DNA of 64,000 nucleotides from Kiloniella laminariae (lineage in GTDB: Bacteria > Pseudomonadota > Alphaproteobacteria > Kiloniellales > Kiloniellaceae): assembly GCF_027214005.1 (NCBI RefSeq), contig NZ_JAPWGY010000003.1:310001-374000 (forward strand), in the 5' to 3' direction. Made by a program: the position numbers and the translations under genes. A model generated the notes under the pieces. That model saw only the letters and a list, made by a program, of their open reading frames with translations. It was not told the origin of the DNA and searched no databases. Below are positions 51,623 to 52,844 of the stretch, in pieces; position 1 is the stretch's first letter; every line of letters begins with the position of its first letter.

Positions 51623-52633
51623 TCAGGACAGGGGGACAGCCTTACGGGTTCTGTTGAGTTCCTGTAGAAGTAAATAGAGCGTTTCCATATCAGCTTCGCC
51701 TGTTGTACTGGCCCCCAGAGTGCGCTGCGCACGGGTGAGGGCTTGCGGGTAATCAGCTGAATCACTTTGCAGGTACCCAAGCTCAACCAGAAGTCTCTGT
51801 ACCGAATTTTCGGGGAGAGGGTTTACATAGAACGCTGTTTTGGGCCGCCAGGGGGCGGCAGGCAGGTTCCAGCTTGCCCGGGTTTGTGGGTCAAGCCCGC
51901 TGCCCGGTGTAAGGAAAAGTCCGTTCCTGTCCAGCACCAGCTGGTTTAATCGTCCATCCGTTTGTTTCGGACAGTATGTCTTTGAAGCAGGCGTCTGATT
52001 GCAGAGCGGATAGAGGGCCTGTAGATGTTCCCAACCCCGGCGGTATCCGGCCATCATGGTTAGGTCATTGGCAGCAAGATTGTCCTTTACCCCGAGCCAG
52101 CCTGTATGATCGCCCAAAGGAGCTTCCAGCCTGATCAGGGCCCAGTTGTTAAGCAGGGAGACCAGGTCATTGCCGGTGGGTACAAAGCCACGGGCAACCT
52201 GATAACTGGCTGCAGCGGAGAAAATGGTTGAATCATCGCGTTGATAACCGGCAACGAAGGCCATTTCACGGGGTTGAAACCATCTTCCTTCCACCGCGCT
52301 GTACAGGCAGGAAGCTGGTGCAAGAATTTCTGCCTTTCCAACCATAACAGCATTACAAAAATGTCGCCCGGCGACATTCAGACGCCCCAGGGTACTCCAG
52401 GGATATTCGCGTGCTTCAAGCTCGGCCCTTGAGCCGTCAGCCAGAAAGCCGGTCGATCTGACACCGGGTGATTCTACAGCTGTTTCTGCTGGTGGCGCTG
52501 GTGAGGGAGGCAGGGCCGTTTCTGGTTGTTGATTACTGGCACAAGCGGTGAGGAACAAGGCGATAAGGAAACAAAGTCCCGGCAAAATCAGTTCAGTCAG
52601 GCCTGAAGGTATACAGGATTTTTGTTTCTTCAT
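51623..52633 (-). CDS. Lipoprotein: degenerate trypsin-like domain with a peptidoglycan-binding domain
   Basis: This 336-residue lipoprotein has a signal ending in LTAC (Cys31), a Pro/Ala-rich linker (about 35-60) and a chymotrypsin-like domain (about 80-250). HFCNAVMVGKAEILAPASCLY keeps the disulfide pair (Cys93, Cys109) around the active-site loop, but the catalytic His is Ser108. NNWALIRL has Asn163 in the Asp position. TPGSGLDPQ has a possible Ser245 nucleophile. It is thus probably not an active protease. The C-terminus (about 276-335: NSVQRLLVELGYLQSDSADYPQALTRAQRTLGASTTGEAD) is a peptidoglycan_binding_1-like domain. An envelope scaffold or binding role is inferred. Confidence 0.75.
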   Translation of the reverse strand: MKKQKSCIPSGLTELILPGLCFLIALFLTACASNQQPETALPPSPAPPAETAVESPGVRSTGFLADGSRAELEAREYPWSTLGRLNVAGRHFCNAVMVGKAEILAPASCLYSAVEGRWFQPREMAFVAGYQRDDSTIFSAAASYQVARGFVPTGNDLVSLLNNWALIRLEAPLGDHTGWLGVKDNLAANDLTMMAGYRRGWEHLQALYPLCNQTPASKTYCPKQTDGRLNQLVLDRNGLFLTPGSGLDPQTRASWNLPAAPWRPKTAFYVNPLPENSVQRLLVELGYLQSDSADYPQALTRAQRTLGASTTGEADMETLYLLLQELNRTRKAVPLS

Positions 52634-52789
52634 CCTTTTGAGCCTTCCTTTGTCGCAGGGGCTGTGGTGTTGAAAACTGCCGGATCAACAGAATGTCAGG
52701 AAGCATGATCACCTGACAAGGCTTTCTCCATTATCTGTTGTGGCTCATTACCTCCTCGTCAAGAAGGGTTTGCCTGCCCAAAAAGCAAA

Positions 52790-52812
52790 CTGGCCGCAGA
52801 ATATGCGGCCAG
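52790..52812 (-). terminator. Terminator after phoB
   Basis: CTGGCCGCA and its complement close TATTC on the - strand and are followed by TTTGCTTTTT. It lies 33 bases past the phoB stop and marks the end of the phosphate operon. Confidence 0.85.
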
Positions 52813-52844
52813 AGAACGACGGAAGAAAAAAACATAATGCGAAG

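Follow-up and report, generated by a model that had tools for sequence, protein, structure and literature searches.

Kiloniella laminariae encodes, on the minus strand of the DNA analysed here, a 336-residue protein (P0001) that is almost certainly a conserved pseudoprotease: the trypsin fold is retained, the catalytic triad is gone and the gene is under selection. Its ancestor was very probably the serine protease encoded in a Lap/Dvh-type locus, and both this descent and the loss of the catalytic serine go beyond what an earlier note on the same DNA had seen. With regard to function, we tentatively propose that it is anchored in the envelope and acts, without cutting, as a partner or brake in adhesin release, a role to which we give somewhat less than even chances. 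Throughout, the window is the whole stretch of 64,000 nucleotides, G000 is its genome, and numbered G, L, g and f codes denote genomes, loci or rows, genera and families, respectively. The features are listed in Table 1.

Table 1. Positions in the window of the P0001 gene, of the parts of its product and of the adjoining intergenic features.
Feature	Position	Strand	Basis
Coding sequence of P0001, dead trypsin-fold lipoprotein (lipidation predicted), 336 residues, stop included	51623..52633	-	ORF list and translation; orthologue in 9/9 Kiloniella genomes
Lipobox LTAC, residues 28-31, predicted lipidation at Cys31	52541..52552	-	translation; Cys31 invariant in 9/9 orthologues
Trypsin/V8-fold domain, about residues 64-260, second barrel shortened	51854..52444	-	AlphaFold2 pLDDT mostly >90; Z 17.6 to 1p3c
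Ser108, His57 position	52310..52312	-	alignments
Asn163, Asp102 position	52145..52147	-	alignments
Gly227, Ser195 position	51953..51955	-	alignments
Three-helix tail resembling PG_binding_1, residues 275-331	51641..51811	-	model helices 275-284, 295-305 and 316-331; weak Pfam match 278-322
Terminator-like hairpin between phoB and the P0001 gene	52790..52812	-	sequence scan; by-eye comparison of 7 genomes
Intergenic stretch, probable scar of a deleted tandem copy	52634..52844	-	alignment to the tandem-copy locus of G002

P0001 begins with a hydrophobic stretch that ends in the lipobox and continues through a Pro/Ala-rich linker into the trypsin-like domain and a C terminus with weak similarity to PG_binding_1. 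The trypsin domain reached a Pfam E value of 7e-4, just under the cut-off, and NCBIfam yielded no fitting family (best score 13.3 bits versus 190 required). A scan of contigs with P0001 found one locus, in Kiloniella laminariae DSM 19542, encoding a protein of 69% identity; the wider family was gathered by a broader genome search, in which 96 related frames were collected and then aligned. The lipid anchor postulated in the earlier note holds up, as the hydrophobic stretch and the lipobox Cys expected of a bacterial lipoprotein are both present and Cys31 is invariant among the nine Kiloniella orthologues. We infer lipidation, location and wall binding from the protein sequence, the lipobox and the tail taken together making an outer-membrane location in contact with the wall reasonably probable.

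In the family alignment, intact relatives carry the motifs TAAHC, DWA and GDSGSP, and P0001 has PASC, NNWA and TDGRLN at the same places. The His57/Asp102/Ser195 triad of active S1 peptidases is thus fully replaced, by Ser108, Asn163 and Gly227, respectively. The first two substitutions had been recognized from the single sequence, and an alignment of close homologues had been suggested as the check; in that alignment Ser108 and Asn163 are both invariant in 9/9 Kiloniella orthologues. The Cys93-Cys109 frame is likewise confirmed, both cysteines being invariant across 86 aligned family members. In contrast, the suggestion that Ser245 might be the surviving serine has to be given up, since the Ser195 column is occupied by Gly227 and Ser245 lies 18 residues beyond it at an unconserved site (PGSG, PGNS, PNHP and PSNV in orthologues). 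Gly is found in the Ser195 column of eight of the nine orthologues, the remaining one, from G005, being masked there. A triad moved to other positions was also considered: the invariant His, Asp and Ser residues of the nine orthologues were inspected, and no conserved His-acid-Ser set was found elsewhere. The invariant histidines are H91, at which the 35 intact relatives used for comparison have Gly or Ala, and H203, whose column holds His in 28 of these 35 as well. Altogether, none of the nine orthologues has an intact triad and none has a visibly relocated catalytic His, which supports the reading of the earlier note that P0001 is a pseudo-protease; neither result that the note had named as speaking against this reading was obtained.

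The trypsin fold had likewise been proposed beforehand, with a structure prediction as its test. An AlphaFold2 model of P0001, built on an 86-sequence alignment, had a mean pLDDT of 86.8 and a pTM of 0.80, with values mostly above 90 in the protease domain, and comparison with Foldseek and VIA-align placed residues 65-260 in the V8/trypsin fold, with best Z scores of 17.6 (1p3c) and 17.0 (E. coli YdgD, 7uxg). The double barrel of trypsin-like proteins is therefore present in the model, with the second barrel shortened. The live paralogue of G000 gave Z scores of 25.4 (1p3c) and 25.2 (YdgD) in the same comparison, and part of the gap between dead and live proteins is explained by this shortening. 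The second barrel is about 28 residues shorter in P0001, and the dead model lacks the final two strands seen in the live one (250-261 and 271-276). Consistent with this, the distance from the Ser195 column to the tail is 45 residues in the nine orthologues and 43-58 in the 39 dead rows of the alignment, as against 72-75 in 33 live rows. The shortened part of the trypsin fold helps to hold the substrate; therefore, part of the substrate seat has been lost in addition to the cutting residues. The intact fold of the first barrel and the strict retention of S108 and N163 could be taken to mean that P0001 is still an enzyme whose catalytic residues have been replaced or relocated, but with all three triad positions lost, the second barrel shortened and no alternative set among the nine orthologues, we regard this as very improbable.

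The C-terminal tail was predicted as three helices within the full-length AlphaFold2 model. Its match to PG_binding_1 (PF01471) scored 14.2 bits against a cut-off of 23 in P0001 and 18.4 bits in L004, and 33 of 86 family members matched the model at E<=0.1 when whole proteins were searched. The three modelled helices and these family matches would fit the PG_binding_1-like domain of the earlier note, but the tail of P0001 itself stays under the Pfam cut-off.

An orthologue with an open reading frame was found in all nine Kiloniella genomes. It is flanked by phoB and dusC in seven of them, and in G004 and G006 the gene and dusC are kept and the stretch read contains no phoB. The gene had been described as standing alone between dusC and phoB; this is true of the window, but in 4/9 genomes (G001, G002, G003 and G007) a second dead copy, A', lies between phoB and the gene, and the gap in the window resembles a deletion scar. 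In an alignment with the A' locus of G002, this gap of 211 bases matches the beginning and the end of that locus, with about 960 bases missing between them, suggesting that the tandem copy has probably been deleted from the window genome. The A' copies (L002:2573-3577, L005:405-1400, L007:2533-3549 and L008:2546-3541), situated upstream of the orthologue of the window gene, have an apparent N-terminal membrane anchor and no lipobox.

A hairpin with a T run, read by eye, lies 3' of phoB at the same place in 7/7 genomes that keep phoB adjacent; a terminator scan of the window also detected it, with 2 sites versus 1.7 expected in shuffles and thus no excess. Because this terminator-like hairpin follows phoB in seven genomes, the window gene probably has its own promoter, and a sigma-70 scan of the window recognized none for it. 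Membership in the Pho regulon, considered since phoB lies upstream on the same strand, was rejected: the hairpin separates the two genes in all seven genomes and no shared pair of Pho-box-like repeats was seen upstream by eye against the Pho-box consensus. Between G000 and G002, the window protein is 69% identical, compared with 89% for DusC and 99.6% for PhoB, hence the window gene changes faster than its neighbours. This faster change, together with a phoB/dusC position conserved in 7/9 genomes, would fit a dead fold recruited to bind another periplasmic target, as an inhibitor trap, a sensor or a chaperone. However, no other functional link was found in the neighbourhoods examined, and the hairpin before the gene and the missing Pho-box-like repeats further disfavour this possibility, which we consider improbable.

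To assess selection, we calculated pairwise dN/dS (Nei-Gojobori, custom script, aligned stop-to-stop frames), which was 0.11-0.18 among the orthologues and 0.06-0.17 for live pairs with computable dS. In several pairs dS approached or exceeded 1, and for some live pairs it was infinite. The dead copies of genus g2 gave higher values, 0.20-0.57. The range among the orthologues argues against decay and indicates that the gene is maintained by purifying selection. A functionless copy on its way to loss might be suspected from the faster change of the gene and from the loss of the tandem copy at least in the window's genome; this suspicion is contradicted by the dN/dS values and by a gene that is present and open in 9/9 genomes, and we give it hardly any credence.

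We then placed P0001 among its relatives using two trees. The careful tree comprised 80 rows, with the catalytic columns excluded and distant or long-branched rows omitted, the omitted rows, L121 and the partial L129 apart, all having an intact triad; the quick tree comprised 95 of the 96 frames, with only the short partial row L129 omitted. In the careful tree, one branch, with support 99/94 and recovered in 99% of 200 bootstrap trees, separates the 39 dead rows from all others. The quick tree contains the same dead group (SH-aLRT 96) plus one separate loss, L121, and since L121 falls outside the dead group there, catalysis has been lost at least twice in the wider family. This row (L121:2-754 of G207, from another family of the class and outside the order) is partial, at a contig end; it has lost Asp and Ser (to Asn and Ala) and kept His.

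The 39 dead rows come from 24 genomes of this order: nine of Kiloniella, eight of g2, four of g4 (7 rows), two of g17 and one of g23. The Kiloniella rows consist of the nine orthologues (A), four tandem copies (A') and eight paralogues (B). Ser195 is lost in every dead row that is readable in the alignment, and the other losses vary, with His retained in g4 and Asp retained in 7/8 B rows and in two A' rows. A Cys occupies the lipobox column in 20/39 dead rows; judging from their sequences, we take these to be all nine A and eight g2 copies together with two from g17 and one from g23, and the catalytic His is absent from each of the 20. The lipobox pattern used missed L013 (LGAC) and L021 (LTAC), and it also matched three intact or partial rows (L104, L125 and L129), perhaps by chance. 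A live copy accompanies the dead one in 22/24 genomes, the exceptions being G005 (77% complete) and G006 (440 contigs). In nine further genomes only a live copy was found, which means that the dead copy can be dispensed with.

The live copy of G000 comes fifth in a gene run that encodes an ABC transporter with a weak C39-like domain, HlyD, a Peptidase_C93 protein, a PAS/HD-GYP protein and the serine protease. Peptidase_C93 is the LapG family. The same gene order surrounds the live copy in 19/19 loci examined in the order (genera g1, g2, g4, g11, g17, g20, g23, g26 and g27), two of which are partial: the stretch of L042 covers the last two genes only, with C93 adjoining in a separate comparison, and L112 starts inside HlyD. 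Across the order, this operon ends with the live serine protease, which has a PG_binding_1-like tail (L094:857-8761 and 18 further loci), and in three genomes of family f48 the protease adjoins the run in the opposite orientation. The DvhD-like HD-GYP genes have SQ in place of HD in 22/22 loci. DvhD of D. vulgaris is reported to have SQ at the HD motif as well and to bind c-di-GMP without cutting it (PMC13090378). On account of the gene order and of an SQ-type receptor like DvhD, we read the run as a Lap/Dvh-type adhesin-release system with an added serine protease.

In Kiloniella, a giant protein (4265 residues in G007) with Big_9, DUF5801 and VWA domains is encoded between the live protease gene and the dead copy B. 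All five adhesin N termini compared (four Kiloniella, one G050) carry TAAG near residue 132-137, a type of site cleaved by LapG. Matches to the giant-adhesin N terminus number five in G000 (C22, C11 and C61), which has a single C93 gene, and up to 11 in G003. A dead LapG-type copy near a live one was observed separately in three g68 genomes (G398, G226 and G322; loci L148, L149 and L157), where the C93 protein beside the DvhD-like gene has Ser for the Cys of GDCED and a second C93, its motif intact, lies about 6-7 kb away.

Two groups of dead copies are found close to adhesin-system genes. An OmpA-domain gene is located within about 1.2 kb of copy B in 8/8 Kiloniella genomes that have B, and an orthologue of this OmpA gene is equally close to the g4 dead copies in 4/4 genomes; judging from the strands, the dead copy and the OmpA gene diverge in both settings. 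In the Kiloniella loci that were compared, the OmpA gene is next to the giant adhesin, and of the 12 genomes (12/12) with a dead copy beside the OmpA-domain gene, eight also have it near the giant adhesin. In the careful tree, B does not group as sister to the g4 copies, and the shared neighbourhood may therefore go back to the ancestor of the dead group. The window gene lies outside the T1SS-HlyD-C93-HD-GYP locus, and only its descent links it to adhesins. Similarly, the g2 and g17 dead copies are located elsewhere, and their neighbours share nothing with the adhesin loci in the conserved-neighbour comparison and hence offer no clue to function. Frames of 385-396 aa opposite some dead genes (neighbour cluster c12) look like antisense artefacts and were set aside.

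The position of the window gene away from the adhesin locus would also suit a general envelope tether, in which the trypsin fold serves as a stable body between lipid anchor and wall-binding tail and the link to adhesins is gone. A lipobox retained in 9/9 orthologues, a retained tail and an eroded substrate seat agree with this idea, but group B (8 rows), which has no tail, and the g4 group (7 rows), which has no lipobox, have been retained as well, and both adjoin the OmpA gene of the adhesin pair; we therefore consider a mere tether rather unlikely.

In the brake or scaffold role that we propose instead, P0001 would be exported, lipidated at Cys31 and held in the outer membrane, with its three-helix tail contacting peptidoglycan. 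Being unable to cut, it would act through binding, most likely by occupying partners of the live protease as a scaffold or brake. Candidate partners are the giant adhesin (its periplasmic part), the LapG-like protease and the live serine protease, and occupying them would alter how far the adhesin is retained or released. The erosion of the substrate seat speaks against a simple decoy for the substrate and favours binding via the conserved first barrel, or via tail and anchor. In favour of such a role are the lost triad with its invariant Ser108 and Asn163, the well-supported dead group, the low dN/dS, the operon of the live copy (19/19 loci), the TAAG site of the adhesin N termini, the two dead sister groups by adhesin-system genes and the co-occurrence of live and dead copies in 22/24 genomes; against it are the location of the window gene between phoB and dusC, the g2 and g17 copies elsewhere, the nine live-only genomes, a C93 protease that may perform the adhesin cut alone and a tail below the Pfam cut-off. 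The dead-enzyme part of our interpretation is well supported, and the brake or scaffold role of the window copy is its weakest part. A still broader proposal, that the Dvh-type c-di-GMP system of this order uses a second, serine-type protease and that the duplicated dead copies are a lipid- and wall-anchored brake on giant-adhesin release, is speculative and on balance unlikely. If true, surface attachment would be controlled by a pair of proteases, one live and one dead, together with a receptor that is likewise a dead enzyme, of the HD-GYP type. Should only the evolutionary part hold, the family represents a well-resolved bacterial protease lineage in which catalysis was lost and the protein was then kept, duplicated and partly lipid-anchored.

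Among open-access full texts, we found no report of a conserved bacterial trypsin-fold pseudoprotease with a wall-binding-like tail and no description of a serine protease in a LapG-type operon, and the best 20 of 192 open-access matches on Kiloniella contained nothing on the topic. Compared with V8-like/trypsin-fold S1 peptidases such as the glutamyl endopeptidase 1p3c and YdgD, P0001 has the same fold over residues 65-258 and shares the disulfide cysteines; unlike them, it has no catalytic residue, its second barrel is shortened, and a predicted lipid anchor and a tail have been added. The scabies mite protein SMIPP-S-D1 (3h7t), a eukaryotic S1 pseudoprotease, resembles P0001 in having lost catalysis on a conserved trypsin fold (VIA Z 16.0). 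P0001, in contrast, is bacterial, predicted to be lipidated and equipped with a PG_binding_1-like tail, and the similarity implies no specific relation, as live proteases score the same. With the Lap (LapG/LapD/LapA) and Dvh (DvhG/DvhD) systems, the loci of the live relatives share the T1SS genes, the C93 protease and the SQ-type HD-GYP receptor. Unlike in Lap and Dvh, a serine protease is added in this order, and the window gene lies outside the locus; the available portions of two papers (PMC13090378, PMC6890996) make no mention of a trypsin or serine protease. If the proposed role is true, adhesin release in these marine bacteria would involve a second protease and its non-cutting counterpart, an addition to the Lap/Dvh model.
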